DNA from: Actinomycetospora lemnae
Lineage (GTDB): Bacteria > Actinomycetota > Actinomycetes > Mycobacteriales > Pseudonocardiaceae
Reading direction: 5' to 3'
DNA length: 64,000 bases
NCBI RefSeq assembly: GCF_028737315.1
Contig: NZ_JAQZAO010000019.1
Coordinates: 1 to 64,000, forward strand
Every line of letters begins with the position of its first letter. Position 1 is the first letter of the stretch. The position numbers and the translations under genes are program-made. Below the pieces are notes generated by a model, which was not told the DNA's origin, did not search any database, and was given only the letters and a program-made list of their open reading frames with translations. Of the stretch, positions 1 to 61,257 are shown in pieces.

Positions 1-46
1 GTGCCGTTGCGGACGTTGAGTGTCCGCAACGGCACTTCGCTGACAC
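1..46. repeat. Palindromic repeat, family P1, copy cut by window edge
   Basis: Bases 1-14 and 22-35 form a perfect 14-bp inverted repeat around a 7-base loop. The following bases 36-46 match the outer arm of the copy at 52191-52245, so the outer left arm probably lies before the window. The same core (GTGCCGT..GC..GAC, GTGTCCG..CGG..ACTTCG) recurs at 14666-14716 inside mftF and at 52191-52245. It could also fold as a terminator for an upstream gene. Confidence 0.75.
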
Positions 47-5527: not shown

Positions 5528-5578
5528 GAGCGAAGGGCCCCTCCGGTCGATCTACTCGACCGGAGGGGCCCTTCGCTC
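5528..5578. terminator. Long perfect hairpin after the cox operon
   Basis: Perfect 23-bp inverted repeat (5528-5550 with 5556-5578) around a 5-base loop. It sits between the end of coxG and the start of thiM, both on the minus strand. There is no clear T-tract, as is common for GC-rich actinobacterial terminators. The likely role is to end the coxSLMG transcript before thiM. Confidence 0.85.
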
Positions 5579-13686: not shown

Positions 13687-14319
13687 TCAGGCGCGGGTCA
13701 AGCGCTTGCGTGCCCACGTGTGCCACGACGCGGGCAGGCCCGGCGCGTCGAGCAGGCGGGCCGCGCGGTCCCGGTCGTGGTGGAAGATCGTGAACGCCTC
13801 GGCGACGGAGACGCCGTCCGTCGGCCGGTCGGTGACCTCGATCGCGTCACCGGCGGTGATCGTGCCGGGGCGCACGACCCGGAGGTAGACGCCGGGGCGG
13901 TCGGCGGCGGCGAAGCGCCGGGGCAGGGTCGGGTCGCCGGCGCGCAGGCCGAGCTTGAAGCACGGGATGCGGGGCTGGACGACCGCGAGCTCCGCGGTGC
14001 CGACGTGCCAGTGCTCGCCGATCACCGCGGCGCGCAGGTCGAGGCCGGTGGTGGTGAGGTTCTGGCCGAAGACCTGGTCGTCGAGCGGGCCGAGCTGGGC
14101 CCGCCACCAGGCGAGGTCCTCGTCGCCGTAGGCGTAGACCGCCTTCTCCGGGCCCCCGTGGTGGACGCGGTCGGCCTGCTCGTCGCCGACCAGGCCCTCC
14201 GGCCCGACCTCGACCGGCCCGTCGACGGGGTCCTTCCAGATCGCGGTGGTCGTCGTCTCGCCGACGCGGCGGCCCGGGACCTCCCGCGGACGGCCGAGGG
14301 CGACGGTGCGGATCCTCAT
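13687..14319 (-). CDS. MOSC domain protein (YiiM-like)
   Basis: 210-residue protein with the MOSC beta-barrel (molybdenum cofactor sulfurase C-terminal domain) and a YiiM-type 3-alpha domain at the C-terminus. Signatures: GPEGLVGDEQADRVHHGGPEKAVYAY, QVFGQNLTTTGLDL and the block RIPCFKLGLRAGDP with the conserved cysteine. Proteins of this type reduce N-hydroxylated compounds or handle the molybdenum cofactor. Its start overlaps the mftF stop by 4 bases (ATGA), so it is translated with that gene. A cofactor link to the cox hydroxylase 4 kb away is only a guess. Confidence 0.88.
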   Translation of the reverse strand: MRIRTVALGRPREVPGRRVGETTTTAIWKDPVDGPVEVGPEGLVGDEQADRVHHGGPEKAVYAYGDEDLAWWRAQLGPLDDQVFGQNLTTTGLDLRAAVIGEHWHVGTAELAVVQPRIPCFKLGLRAGDPTLPRRFAAADRPGVYLRVVRPGTITAGDAIEVTDRPTDGVSVAEAFTIFHHDRDRAARLLDAPGLPASWHTWARKRLTRA

Positions 14320-15818
14320 GACGGTGCCTTCCCGGTGAGGTCGGGGCGCAGGGGCGCGACGGTGCGGTGGCGCCAGGCGCCCCACCAGAGCCCGGCGCCG
14401 TACGCGAGGTCGTCGAGGCGGTGCGCGACGACGTGCGTCGCGGCGTCGAGGGGGCCCGCGCCGGGCGGGCGGAAGCGCCACCAGTCGGCGAGCCCTTCGG
14501 CGACCGCCGCGGCGACCGTGGCCCGTCGTAGTCGTCGCGAGACCAGCGAGCCGGCCACGGCCGCGGGCCACCAGTGGCGCGTCAGGGCCCCCGCCGCCTG
14601 CCACACCGCTCCGCCCAGCCCCCACGGCGCCAGCACCGCCGCCAGGCGGGCGGCTCGCGCCGTGCCAGCGAAGTGCCGTCGCAGACGTTGAGTGTCCGTA
14701 TCGGTACTTCGATCACGACGCCGGGACCGGGCGAGCTCCCGCGCCAGGCGGGCCGTGGCGGCGAGCGTGACCGCGCCCGCCGCGGCCGTGCTCCAGGGGC
14801 GCTGGAGCCCGAGCAGCGTCACGGTGGCCGCGGTCCACGGTGCGAGCGCGACCGGGGGCACGCGACGCGGGTGGCGCAGGGCGAGCGGCGCCGCGCCGGT
14901 GCCGTAGAACGCCTTGCGCGCGAGCCACGGGCCGACGGCGTCGCGGTGCTCGTGCGCCACCTGCGAGGCCGGCTCGTAGCGCAGCCGCCAGCCGTCGCCG
15001 GCCAGGCGCCAGACGAGGTCGACGTCCTCGGCGACGGGCATGTCCTCCGCGAACCCGCTGCCCAGCGCCTCGCGGCGGACGAGGAGCGCGGCGCTGGGGA
15101 CGTAGGCGACCCGCGATCGCGCGGTGACCGGTGCGGGGCGGGCGCCGAGGTCGAGGCTGGACCGTCGTTCCTCGTAGCGGGCGACCGCCCGGCGCGCGAC
15201 CGAGCTGGGGGCTTTCCTGGCGTTGGACGCCAGCGTGGACGCCAGGCTGACAACCCCGGACCTCGCCCCGGTCCAGGCCACGATCCGGGGGGCGGCGAGG
15301 GCGACAGCGGGGTCGGCGAGGTGCCCGAGCAGCGGGGCGAGCCAGCCCGGCTCGGGGACCACGTCGGAGTCGAGGAACGCCACCAGCGCGCCGGACGACG
15401 CCGCCGCGCCCGTGTTCCGCGCGGCGGCGGGACCCCGCGAGACCGGGTGCCGGACGACGCGCGCGCCCCGCTCGTCGGCCACCCGCGCCGTCGCGTCGGG
15501 GTCGTTGGAGCCGTCGTCGACGACCACCACCTCGCCGAGCCCGGGCGCCGTGTCACCCAGGGCGTCGAGGAGCCGCGCGAGCTCGGCGGGGCGGTCGCGC
15601 ACGGGCACGACCACCGAGACGTCGACGGCGTCGGGCGCCTCGGGGTGCGACGGCTCCGGGTGCGCGACGCCGGCGTCGGTCAGCAGGCGCGCCAGCGCCG
15701 CGGACGTCGCATCGTCGACGACCAGCCGCGCGCCGGGCGGCACCACCCCGTCGGGGCCGGCGAGCCGCGCGACCGCCCCCGGCGCCAGGTGCAGCACCCG
15801 CGGCGGCGAGCCGCCCAC
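14316..15818 (-). CDS. mftF: Mycofactocin glycosyltransferase MftF with two in-frame repeat inserts
   Basis: Family 2 glycosyltransferase expected to attach glucose residues to premycofactocin. The GT-A core shows DVSVVVPVRDRPAELARLL, VVVVDDGSND, GPAAARNTG and AFLDSDV (DxD-like), followed by the MftF-typical RRSSLDLG and VAYVPSAALLVRR and a hydrophobic C-terminal half. Two dispersed palindromic repeats are translated in frame: 15207-15257 (about 17 residues) and 14666-14716 (about 18 residues). Similarity continues upstream of the first GTG (15818) through RLPSGWAVVLDRRV to about 15890, yet that stretch has no ATG, GTG or TTG. The true start is therefore probably non-canonical, e.g. CTG near 15884. 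mftE lies three genes upstream. Confidence 0.85.
   Translation of the reverse strand: MGGSPPRVLHLAPGAVARLAGPDGVVPPGARLVVDDATSAALARLLTDAGVAHPEPSHPEAPDAVDVSVVVPVRDRPAELARLLDALGDTAPGLGEVVVVDDGSNDPDATARVADERGARVVRHPVSRGPAAARNTGAAASSGALVAFLDSDVVPEPGWLAPLLGHLADPAVALAAPRIVAWTGARSGVVSLASTLASNARKAPSSVARRAVARYEERRSSLDLGARPAPVTARSRVAYVPSAALLVRREALGSGFAEDMPVAEDVDLVWRLAGDGWRLRYEPASQVAHEHRDAVGPWLARKAFYGTGAAPLALRHPRRVPPVALAPWTAATVTLLGLQRPWSTAAAGAVTLAATARLARELARSRRRDRSTDTDTQRLRRHFAGTARAARLAAVLAPWGLGGAVWQAAGALTRHWWPAAVAGSLVSRRLRRATVAAAVAEGLADWWRFRPPGAGPLDAATHVVAHRLDDLAYGAGLWWGAWRHRTVAPLRPDLTGKAPS
14666..14716. repeat. Palindromic repeat P1 inside mftF
   Basis: Matches the core of the copy at 1-46 (GTGCCGT.GC.GACGTTGAGTGTCCG with ACTTCG) and the copy at 52191-52245. 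The arms pair imperfectly (AAGTGCCGT with ACGGTACTT type). On the mftF strand it reads through as DRSTDTDTQRLRRHFAGT with no stop, so it adds roughly 18 residues. Confidence 0.8.
15207..15257. repeat. Palindromic repeat P2 inside mftF
   Basis: Shares the core CCAGCGTGGACGCCAGGCTG and the leading TTTCCTGGCGT with copies at 30958-30999, 31050-31096 and 61203-61251. On the mftF strand it is open and encodes GVVSLASTLASNARKAP, placed between the GT-A core and the conserved ARYEERRSSLDLG block. Confidence 0.8.
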
Positions 15819-15956
15819 CAGCGTCCGGCCGCCGTCGACGCGCAGGACCCGGCGGTCGAGGACGACGGCCCACCCCGACGGCAGGCGCGCGGGGCGGGCG
15901 GGGGCGAGCGTGGGGGTGGCGATGGGCGGCGAGTCTAGGCAGCGCGCGAGGCGCGG

Positions 15957-17791: not shown

Positions 17792-17831
17792 GTGAGCGGA
17801 CTTTCCAGCTATAGCTCGAAAGATCGCTCAC
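17792..17831. repeat. Palindromic repeat P4, copy 1, upstream of mftE
   Basis: 40-base near-palindrome beginning GTGAGC and ending GCTCAC, with central GCTATAGC and ACTTTC/GAAAG inner arms; about 17 of 20 positions pair. Closely related to 37831-37874 and more weakly to 17842-17881. It lies 15 bases before the mftE start, so it could act as terminator, operator or leader structure. Confidence 0.8.
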
Positions 17832-17881: not shown

Positions 17882-19805
17882 ATGCTGCCGTACCCTCGCG
17901 GACCGCGGCGTCGATGCCGCGCGGGGCGAGGCAGTCGCCGACGCGGACGACGGGGACGTCGAGGGTGCCCAGGTCCGGCACCACCGGCGTCGGCGGGCCG
18001 GCGTGCACGACCCAGTCGGCGGGCCACGCCGTCACCTCGCCCGTGAGGTGGTGCAGCACGTCGAGGACGAGGCCGTCGCGGCAGGCGAGCACCACCCGAT
18101 CGGTGTACTCGGCGATCCCGACCTCGGCGGCGCGGCGGCGCCAGCGCTCGCGGTCGAGGGTCGGGGCGAGGTCGCCGGCCGCCACGAGCGCCGGGGTCAG
18201 CGTCGCCACGGACGCGCCCCGGCGCGCCAGCAGCTCCGCGGTCGACGTCGCCGCGTGGCCCCGCCCGTCGTCGACGACCAGCACCCGCCCGCTCGGCGCG
18301 ACCCGCCCGGTGAGCACGTCGGTGACGTCGACGACCCGGGGGTGCCCGCCCGCCCAGGCCGGGAGTGCCGGGCGGGCGCCGGTGGCGAGGACGACGGCGT
18401 CGGCACCCTGCACGTCCTCCACGGGGGTCCGAAGCCGCACGACGACCCCGAGGTCGCGGGCCTCGTGCGCCAGGTCGGCGACGAGGTGCGCCAGCTCCCG
18501 GCGCTCGGGGGCGCGCGACGCGATCGCGAGCTGGCCGCCGAGGACGTCCGAGCGCTCGGCGAGCGTCACCGCGTGCCCGTCGCGCGCCGCCGCGACCGCC
18601 GCCGCCAGCCCCGCGGGCCCGCCGCCGACGACGAGGACGAGGACGCGAGCGAACGGGGAGTTCGCGCGCGTAGAAGCAGCGAGATACCCGTTCGTTGCGA
18701 AGGACTCGCGACCGGCCACAGGGTTGACCGCGCACCCCAGCCGCTGGTTGAGGCCCACGCGCGCGATGCACTCCTGGTTGCAGCCGATGCACCGCCGTAC
18801 GCGCCCGCCCCGCAGCGCCTTCGCCGCGAACGCGGGGTCGGCAATCTGTCCCCGCACGACGCCCACGAGGTCGCACGACCCCGACGCCACGGCCTCGCGC
18901 GCCTGCTCCGGCGTCGTGAACCGCCCGACCCCGAGCACCGGCACCGACACGGCCGCGCGCACCGCCGTCGGCACGTGCGCCGCGTACCCCGCCGGCACGC
19001 CCATCGGCGGCTCGATGAGCGGCAGCGTCCGAGTGGCGACGCCGACCGCGGTGTTGACGTAGTCCACGAGCGGCTCGACGGCGACGGCGACCCGGACGGC
19101 GTCCTCGGTGCCCAGCCCGCCGGCGAACCCCTCGTCGCCCTGCAGGCGTACCCCGAGCACGCCGTCCGGGCCGAGCGCGGCCCGCACGGACTCCAGGATC
19201 GCCACGAGGAACGGCAGCGCCCGCGGCGAGGCGGCACGCAGCGCGGCGGAGCTGCCGCGCCGGAGGCGGGCGTCGGCCGACACCAGCTGCCGGATCAGCG
19301 ACGCCTGCGAGCACTGGATCTCGACGCCGTCGAGCCCGCCCGCCCTGACGTGTGCCGCGACCAGCCCGAACCCGTCCACCAGCCGCGCCAGCCCCGCGTC
19401 GGACAGCGGCCGCGGCACCTCCCCGAACATCGGGTCGGGCTCGTCGTCGGCGCCGTCGACGGGTGCCCGGGAGTACAGGGAGGACGACTGCCCGCCGTTG
19501 TGCCCGAGCTGCGCCAGCACGAGCGCGCCGTGGGCGTGCACGGCGTCGGCGATCGCCCGGTAGCCCGGCACGACGGCCGGGTCGGTGCCGTCGACGAGCT
19601 TCTCGTAGGGCCGGTCGGCGGGGTCGACCGACTGCTCCTCGGTGATCACCATGCCGACCCCGCCGGCGGCGCGGGCGCCGTAGTACGCGGCGTGCTGCGC
19701 GGTCGGTCGGCGCGCCACCGCCGCGTCCGTCAGGTGCGCGGGGAAGACGATCCGGTTGCGGACGACGCGCGACCCGAGCCGCAGCGGCTCCCCCAGGACG
19801 CTCAC
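17859..19805 (-). CDS. FadH/OYE-family flavoprotein, mycofactocin-associated, with in-frame repeat insert
   Basis: 648-residue 2,4-dienoyl-CoA-reductase-like protein. The N-terminal FMN TIM barrel starts LGSRVVRNRIVFPAHLT. A complete [4Fe-4S] motif follows, C-x2-C-x3-C-x11-C in CIGCNQECI and CAVNP. Then come an FAD domain (VLVLVVGGGPAGLAAAVAAA) and a second nucleotide-binding region. Between GRE and RVLVLVVGG the sequence SFATNGYLAASTRANSPFA is encoded by a repeat (18651-18706) also found between genes at 57097-57147. GTG start overlaps the OYE2 stop by 4 bases. Paired FadH/OYE proteins are typical mycofactocin neighbours, with unproven redox partners. The stop lies in a P4 palindrome. Confidence 0.87.
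   Translation of the reverse strand: MSVLGEPLRLGSRVVRNRIVFPAHLTDAAVARRPTAQHAAYYGARAAGGVGMVITEEQSVDPADRPYEKLVDGTDPAVVPGYRAIADAVHAHGALVLAQLGHNGGQSSSLYSRAPVDGADDEPDPMFGEVPRPLSDAGLARLVDGFGLVAAHVRAGGLDGVEIQCSQASLIRQLVSADARLRRGSSAALRAASPRALPFLVAILESVRAALGPDGVLGVRLQGDEGFAGGLGTEDAVRVAVAVEPLVDYVNTAVGVATRTLPLIEPPMGVPAGYAAHVPTAVRAAVSVPVLGVGRFTTPEQAREAVASGSCDLVGVVRGQIADPAFAAKALRGGRVRRCIGCNQECIARVGLNQRLGCAVNPVAGRESFATNGYLAASTRANSPFARVLVLVVGGGPAGLAAAVAAARDGHAVTLAERSDVLGGQLAIASRAPERRELAHLVADLAHEARDLGVVVRLRTPVEDVQGADAVVLATGARPALPAWAGGHPRVVDVTDVLTGRVAPSGRVLVVDDGRGHAATSTAELLARRGASVATLTPALVAAGDLAPTLDRERWRRRAAEVGIAEYTDRVVLACRDGLVLDVLHHLTGEVTAWPADWVVHAGPPTPVVPDLGTLDVPVVRVGDCLAPRGIDAAVREGTAACEQLARL
18651..18706. 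repeat. Palindromic repeat P3 inside the OYE1 gene
   Basis: About 50 bases nearly identical to the reverse complement of 57097-57147 (shared core CGCGTAGAAGCAGCGAGATA with flanking AACGGGGAG and CCCGTTCG). The ends CGAACGGG/CCCGTTCG are inverted repeats. It is translated in frame on the minus strand and falls in the linker between the Fe-S region and the FAD domain. Confidence 0.82.
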
Positions 19806-30887: not shown

Positions 30888-30957
30888 TCATCGGCGAGCA
30901 CCGCCTGAGCGCCGTCTGAGCGCCGCCTGCTCTACGGCTGGGCGAGGCCCGGGGTCG

Positions 30958-30999
30958 TGCCAGCCTGGCGTCCACGCTGGCGCTCAACGCCAGGATTTC
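30958..30999 (-). repeat. Palindromic repeat P2, inverted copy
   Basis: Reverse orientation of the P2 element (its complement carries CCTGGCGTTGAGCGCCAGCG and GGACGCCAGGCTG). Together with 31050-31096 it makes an outward-facing inverted pair about 50 bases apart. The first copy lies about 70 bases after the Hsp70-like gene and may end its transcript. Confidence 0.78.
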
Positions 31000-31049
31000 C
31001 CCCAGCTCGACCCCGGCCGGTCCGGCACCCCTCGCCCGTGATCGTGGTG

Positions 31050-31096
31050 GGTTTCCTGACGTCTGACGCCAGCGTGGACGCCAGGCTGAACAACCT
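31050..31096 (+). repeat. Palindromic repeat P2, direct copy
   Basis: Contains TTTCCTGACGT then GACGCCAGCGTGGACGCCAG, matching 15207-15257 and 61203-61251. It ends 8 bases before the stop of the cbbY-like gene, so it may terminate the minus-strand prk-cbbY transcript. Confidence 0.78.
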
Positions 31097-37830: not shown

Positions 37831-37874
37831 ATGTGAGCACTTTCGACGGCTATAGCCGTGGAAAGTGCTCACAT
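37831..37874. repeat. Palindromic repeat P4, copy 3, after cbbX
   Basis: 44-base palindrome with ATGTGAGCACTTTC and GAAAGTGCTCACAT as outer arms and ACGGCTATAGCCGT at the centre; 20 of 21 positions pair. Same plan and centre as 17792-17831. It lies between the cbbX stop and the LysR gene start and can serve as a terminator. Confidence 0.85.
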
Positions 37875-52190: not shown

Positions 52191-52245
52191 GTGTCAGCGA
52201 AGTGCCGTCGCTGACACCCAGTGTCCGTATCGGTACTTCGATCAC
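52191..52245. repeat. Palindromic repeat P1, intergenic copy
   Basis: Contains GTGTCAGCGAAGTGCCGTCG then CTGACAC and AGTGTCCGTATCGGTACTTC, matching 14666-14716 and the left-edge copy. It lies between the mftM-like stop (52190) and the convergent nos stop (52260) and may terminate both transcripts. Here it is not coding. Confidence 0.85.
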
Positions 52246-61196: not shown

Positions 61197-61202
61197 TCGT
61201 GG

Positions 61203-61251
61203 GTGCTTTCCTGACGCCCAGTGTCAGCGTGGACGCCACGCTGACACACCC
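61203..61251 (+). repeat. Palindromic repeat P2 and probable terminator
   Basis: GTGTCAGCGTGG and CCACGCTGACAC (61221-61232 with 61236-61247) are perfect arms around ACG. The leading TTTCCTGACG marks it as P2, with outer bases resembling P1. It lies between the convergent sigma and response-regulator genes and may end both. Confidence 0.82.
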
Positions 61252-61257
61252 CGTGCG

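Follow-up and report, generated by a model that had tools for sequence, protein, structure and literature searches.

A candidate AbiEi-like, nuclease-like partner for the REP/RAYT-like palindromes that occupy enzyme loops in Actinomycetospora

Introduction

The systems closest to the one described here are the REP and REPIN sequences with their RAYT genes, or REPtrons. In the accessible parts of two papers (PMC3733652, PMC8049555), these are presented as dispersed palindromes, many of them lying by the 3' ends of genes, together with a single-copy gene that is flanked by palindrome copies; separate palindrome families have their own genes, and the RAYTs are vertically inherited. A CGTC tag at the ends is reported for the palindromic elements of Rickettsia in the part of Di Nocera 2013 available to us (PMC3733652), which also states that a dedicated enzyme was not found for the CGTC families. 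Palindromes lying in frame have been described in Rickettsia and other bacteria, where, according to the same part and to the accessible part of a further paper (PMC3733652, PMC10969869), they belong to several families, sit in genes for functional proteins and occur twice in some of these genes. Here we compare with these systems two palindromes, P1 and P2, of a window of 64,000 nucleotides from Actinomycetospora lemnae (contig NZ_JAQZAO010000019.1), which were noticed within one enzyme gene.

Palindromes within mftF

The minus strand of the window encodes the mycofactocin glycosyltransferase MftF (mftF, 14319..15926), assigned from profile TIGR03965, its translation and a structure model; the product scores 461 bits, above the threshold of 280 of this NCBIfam profile. 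The gene contains a P1 element of 55 nt on the plus strand (about 14662-14716), with the minus-strand reading DRSTDTDTQRLRRHFAGT, and a P2 element on the minus strand (about 15201-15257), which reads VSLASTLASNARKAPSS. Translation bears out the statement of the earlier note that both lie in frame without stops: the mftF frame stays open through P1 and P2 alike, giving residues DRSTDTDTQRLRRHFAGT and VSLASTLASNARKAPSS. Open frames number four of six in P1 and five of six in P2.

The closest named MftF is that of A. straminea (87% identical). Of the relatives from a family search in 100 genomes, we compared the 29 best-scoring, 26 of them outside the genus. None of the 29 has the P2 segment and none of the 26 has the P1 segment, in agreement with the proposed insertion at these points. 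Some relatives have other extra residues at the P2 site, as in L066, where they are unrelated. Such variation in loop length would suit the idea that the two segments are ordinary MftF loops resembling repeats by chance. We regard this idea as refuted, because in a BLAST search of the whole genome copies on other contigs share 98% identity with the P1 of mftF; the lack of both segments in the 26 relatives from other genera also contradicts it.

A model of MftF built from 32 sequences, with residue numbers 14 less than those of the translation, has a mean pLDDT of 90.5. Its only stretch below 50, residues 208-224, covers the greater part of the P2 insert (about 210-228), and the P1 insert (about 390-408), with blocks of pLDDT 66 and 77, is placed where one long helix breaks off and the next begins, continuing into the latter. 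Both inserts are modelled as flexible, low-confidence parts of an otherwise confident fold, consistent with the earlier suggestion that they form loops.

The mycofactocin cluster has a third in-frame insert, a partial P6 palindrome on the minus strand (18649..18682), in the gene for the FadH/OYE oxidoreductase (TIGR03997, 706 bits, under the cut-off of 793), which neighbours mftF with its two inserts. The segment at 18649-18682 is shorter in five Actinomycetospora relatives (L112, L113, L115, L116 and L118).

Copies in the genome and kinship of P1 and P2

Copies of both elements had also been proposed elsewhere in the window, and they are present there. P1 recurs on the plus strand at 52191..52245 (L030), in intergenic position between a left gene whose stop codon precedes it by 3 nt and a convergent gene on the right, and on the minus strand at 1..46, where the copy is cut by the contig end. 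P2 forms an inverted pair (30952..31010, plus strand; 31042..31096, minus strand) and has a further minus-strand copy at 61197..61252. Beyond the window, a BLAST search of the whole genome (6.06 Mb), with 40 candidates scored, listed 51 rows for P1 and 43 for P2, which we count as no fewer than 40 separate places per family; the P1 places are fewer than the rows because some rows represent the same palindrome on the opposite strand. Covariance models at E 0.001 gave 102 P1 and 75 P2 matches among the best 150 candidates each, many of the 102 being one place matched on both strands because P1 is nearly symmetric. A sample of 864 kb, composed of the window plus 800 kb picked regardless of repeats, holds 6 copies of P1 and 16-17 of P2. 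Inverted pairs of P1 and of P2 are also present in this genome.

P1 and P2 had been taken for two unrelated families, a view which these data overturn. Their short termini are related, P1 having GTGYCAGC and CGATCAC and P2 having GTGYCAGC with either CGATCAC or CTCG, so that GTGYCAGC is shared, as is CGATCAC in many copies. Consensus sequences composed by hand from variants with intact ends are identical at 33 of 55 positions (mean of 13.9 and maximum of 25 in 5000 shuffles), and the P1 covariance model also picks up a P2 copy at E = 1e-5. We take P1 and P2 for sister subfamilies of one REP-like element, a palindrome of about 55-65 nt. A simple scan of the window for the end motifs gave mostly noise. 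Visual inspection of the flanks of 60 copies, and comparison with the empty site of G104, revealed no target-site duplication.

The genome has an additional family of near-perfect palindromes, GTGAGC...GCTATAGC...GCTCAC, found at six places in the 864 kb, one of them at window positions 37833-37872; the palindrome of this family at 17792-17831 overlaps with the beginning of mftE in its longest reading frame. A partner gene for the GTGAGC...GCTCAC family was not identified in this genome.

In-frame copies and their occupation across the genus

Gene context was checked for 60 copies, the first 30 listed for each family and its best-scoring ones, with gene calls from a home-made codon-score heuristic and with L033 and L042 excluded as ambiguous. 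The copies lie mostly outside genes, often directly after stop codons: for 12 of the 30 P1 copies the left-hand gene ends at a stop codon no more than 18 nt away, and some copies stand between convergent stops (L004, L011, L021, L030). Seven of the 60 lie clearly in frame within six genes, a share biased toward mftF-like copies because the 60 are the best-scoring. The hosts are mftF (twice) and the genes for a THUMP-like methyltransferase, CofH of F420 synthesis, a family 9 glycosyltransferase (GT9), an Emb arabinosyltransferase and CoxG. The at least 40 places per family support the proposal that the elements have spread through the genome.

Of the 18 genomes of the genus, 17 match MftF with E values no higher than 1e-80, and a typed element is present at the P1 site of mftF in 12 of these 17 and at the P2 site in 9. 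The P1 site holds P1 in this genome, G108 and G102 (30 bits), P2 in G111 and G112, P3 in G104, G109, G103 and weakly G113, and P4 in G042, G075 and weakly G106; in G105 the gene is truncated at this site by its contig end. P1, P2 and P4 are dispersed repeats, and P3 is defined from copies in these loops, the typing profile having been built partly from the same loops. At the second mftF site of G104 and G112 two elements adjoin each other.

Of the five other host genes, three were aligned with their orthologues, those for the methyltransferase, CofH and GT9. Within one clade of the genus their loops are filled, in most or all members, by differing palindrome types; in the second clade some or all members have them empty. 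In CofH of G110 (L246) the loop has short near-tandem repeats after its P2 and exceeds the empty loops of the second clade by 132 nt. Across the genus, four enzymes have between them five loops that are repeatedly occupied at the same place by different palindrome types, with constant orientation at four of the five sites (12/12, 9/9, 10/10 and 8/8 typed elements) and mixed orientation, 6 versus 5, at the methyltransferase site. Even sister species differ, this genome from G111 at the first mftF site and the methyltransferase, and G112 from G104 at the first mftF site and CofH. The methyltransferase loop of G101 is 54 nt longer than the empty loop of G104, without visible target duplication.

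How did the same loops come to hold different palindromes? In mftF the occupants vary while place, orientation and alignment frame stay constant, and we infer that replacement of one element by another would fit this pattern better than many random insertions. Repeated independent insertion into hot-spot loops, followed by loss through slippage, has a good chance of being the correct explanation instead, if somewhat short of an even one. In its favour are the mixed orientation at the methyltransferase, which points to some independent insertion, the empty methyltransferase site of G104 where its sister G112 has a filled one, and the two adjacent elements at the second mftF site of G104 and G112. 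Hot-spot insertion has more difficulty with the single orientation of all 39 typed elements at the other four sites, and with the constancy of the reading frame in the alignments when four of six P1 frames and five of six P2 frames are open.

The partner gene

Contig 29 has a gene inside a P1 pair, and a paralogue of it lies inside a P2 pair of contig 24; a protein search found four such paralogues in this genome, the same four that a profile recovers at E 1e-12. All four are bracketed by inverted flank copies of a palindrome, a different one in each case, with inverted matches of 50 nt at 100% for the P1-type gene, 66 nt at 91% for the P2-type gene, 46 nt at 96% for the P5 gene (contig 12) and 41 nt at 95% for the P6 gene. 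As the protein search alone had led to the genes of contigs 12 and 26, the palindromes on their flanks amount to a confirmed prediction. All four flank palindromes are dispersed in the 864 kb, P1 with 6 copies, P2 with 16-17 and the remaining two with 4 and 9, and none has a copy in samples of five other genomes. A hairpin at window positions 5528-5578, with two arms of 23 nt, is similar to P5, the palindrome on both sides of the nuclease-like gene of contig 12.

In G101, G108, G109 and G110 the P1 pairs enclose an orthologue of the P1-type gene (73-76% identity), and in G111 and G112 the P2 pairs enclose one of the P2-type gene. Both genes occupy the same genomic places in all six genomes compared, with 12 of 12 flanks similar. 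Judged from these positions, it is the palindromes that would spread, the partner gene staying in place.

The palindromes could alternatively be the MITE-like ends of a classical insertion sequence, with the nuclease-like gene a passenger or a settled defence gene. The shortness and relatedness of the P1 and P2 ends would agree with this, as would the inverted pairs around other genes or none: of 18 regions fetched, 17 are pairs, and 11 of these 17 lack a nuclease-like gene. We consider such an origin quite improbable, given that each of the four paralogues has its own palindrome, that the link of gene and palindrome recurs in other genera with other palindromes (see below), and that no transposase domain of the IS200/IS605 type, the one transposase class searched, was found in the genus. 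The RAYT transposase domain (PF01797) occurs in 0 of 18 genus genomes, with a control search positive in 5 of 14, and a Y1 transposase was discarded as the mover, its domain being found in 0 of the 18.

The N-terminus of the protein is AbiEi-like in all four paralogues (PADLOC, E 1e-6 to 2e-13). AbiEi antitoxins repress their own operons by acting on inverted repeats there, and this, together with the AbiEi-like N-terminus, supports another interpretation, namely that the palindromes are binding sites of an autoregulator and the dispersed copies a regulon or bidirectional terminators, without any mobilisation. The 12 of 30 P1 copies lying at most 18 nt from the left gene's stop, and those between convergent stops, would also suit it. 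Yet an autoregulator needs no second inverted copy downstream, no in-frame copies in enzyme genes and no separate palindrome for each paralogue, and it leaves the change of occupants between sister species unexplained. On balance we find it unlikely.

The C-terminus is weakly similar to MTES_1575 (PF18741, E 0.03) and DUF559 (E 0.2), under the curated cut-offs; nucleases of these families are Vsr-like. A motif Asp...Glu-x-Asp is present in 21 of 31 homologues aligned (alignment A5, without L353, a duplicate of L331, and without L355 and L376, which have stop or strand trouble). From this motif and the weak profile matches, the C-terminus appears to resemble a PD-(D/E)XK nuclease. The strict D-E-D motif is found at 15 of 19 palindrome loci versus 6 of 12 others, which is not significant (p = 0.13), and a looser D-[EQ]-D pattern, picked after looking at the data, at 18 of 19 versus 6 of 12 (p = 0.007). 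Three palindrome-flanked homologues (L364, L374, L375) have Gln in place of the Glu of the motif and are perhaps inactive or of different chemistry. A search for solved structural relatives gave a best match of E = 0.78, which we do not take as a relative, and no viral relatives were confirmed in IMG/VR. NCBIfam assigns no family to three of the four paralogues, and a nitrite reductase match to one of them (E = 0.066) was disregarded.

Spread of the gene and its palindromes

Actinomycetospora belongs to the Pseudonocardiaceae. Of 60 genomes from this bacterial family, 47 have a match to the protein family with an E value no higher than 1e-12, and these represent 37 of 46 genera. When flanks of 450 bp were compared, inverted matches over 40 bits occurred at 28 of 52 genes of the nuclease-like family (24 of 48 without this genome) and at none of 73 control loci drawn from four other genes (Fisher p = 7e-14), these controls including orthologues from one genus and therefore not being fully independent. 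The result of 28/52 versus 0/73 is unchanged whether both orientations or inverted matches only are counted; in the range of 35-40 bits lie seven control loci and one test locus. At the other 24 of the 52 loci no flanking repeat within the 450 bp exceeds 40 bits, and in a subset of 28 loci 11 have no such match. A second control with mismatched flanks of different loci gave 2 of 60 pairs over 40 bits (L373/L381 and L360/L354), which may stem from conserved neighbour genes.

Of 14 flank palindromes for which a sample of their own genome was available, ten have at least one copy in it and four have none; the count of five for L357 in the G057 sample includes the flanks of that locus itself. The flank palindrome of L423 (G042) has no copies in the sample of its own genome and two in the present genome. 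The type-4 palindrome, which lies in mftF of G042 and G075, has nine copies in a 400-kb sample of G042 and flanks a degenerate paralogue in that genome. This paralogue (L426, G042:C1:3553100-3556600) is still palindrome-flanked, and its palindrome family may possibly have outlived its enzyme.

Proposed mechanism and meaning

Considering this evidence together, we favour, with a probability of roughly 0.6, a REP/RAYT-like system that has a different, non-HUH partner enzyme; its architecture is as described above, and its partner would bind, cleave and mobilise the palindromes. The AbiEi-like/nuclease-like protein would recognise its cognate hairpin and nick or cut there, and cutting would either copy the palindrome to new sites or convert one resident palindrome into another. 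A minority of copies would then persist inside genes where the frame is kept, as in the flexible loops predicted for mftF. More tentatively, one may picture a palindrome-specific AbiEi-fused nuclease, rather than a HUH transposase, as what drives the mobile palindromes: it would cut at cognate hairpins, repair would then write one palindrome over another in a homing-like manner, and in-frame enzyme loops would serve as exchangeable cassettes across a genus.

In-frame palindromes being already known (in the accessible parts of PMC3733652 and PMC10969869), this side of our observations adds one more example to a behaviour already described. Our search of the literature, which covered few subscription journals and no preprints, found, among the titles and abstracts listed, no AbiEi-like proteins joined with palindromic repeats, no DUF559 or MTES_1575 nucleases tied to cognate palindromes and no publication on AbiEi together with DUF559; a partner gene of the present kind was likewise absent from the papers listed. 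As regards the spread of palindromes without RAYT, including the in-frame ones of Rickettsia, a dedicated enzyme was not found for the CGTC families (PMC3733652). With four families that have a candidate partner, and a gene family present in 37 of the 46 genera sampled, a biochemical test is feasible. The same material supplies a natural set of enzymes that take up many different inserts, roughly 17-20 residues long, in one and the same loop.

Comparison with known systems

The likeness to REP/RAYT systems lies in the dispersed palindromes near gene ends, the single-copy gene between palindrome copies and the presence of one gene per family. The partner gene is likewise flanked by its own palindrome, in four of four paralogues here, albeit as a non-RAYT gene, and the P1-type and P2-type genes keep constant places in six genomes, as is described for RAYTs in the accessible part of PMC8049555. 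The differences concern the enzyme and the ends: no Y1/HUH domain was found in the genus, the partner combining an AbiEi-like part with a PD-(D/E)XK-like C-terminus, and P1 and P2, as elements of 55-65 nt, end without a GTAG tag. Because the HUH enzyme and the GTAG tag, both features that define REP/RAYT systems, are missing, we do not class the P1/P2 system as a member.

With the AbiEi antitoxins of type IV toxin-antitoxin systems the partner shares its N-terminal part, at PADLOC E values down to 2e-13, and it differs from them by its additional nuclease-like C-terminus. With DUF559 and MTES_1575 it shares the Asp...Glu-x-Asp motif and weak profile matches, whereas its scores stay under their curated cut-offs.

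The earlier note had likened the in-frame copies to the palindromic elements of Rickettsia. In behaviour the likeness holds, with in-frame copies in genes of conserved proteins, several families and some genes hit twice. Kinship is not supported, since the ends of P1 and P2 carry no CGTC tag, this motif being found only in their interior. A further difference from the CGTC families is that, while these are reported without a dedicated enzyme in the accessible part of PMC3733652, four palindrome families here each have a candidate one.
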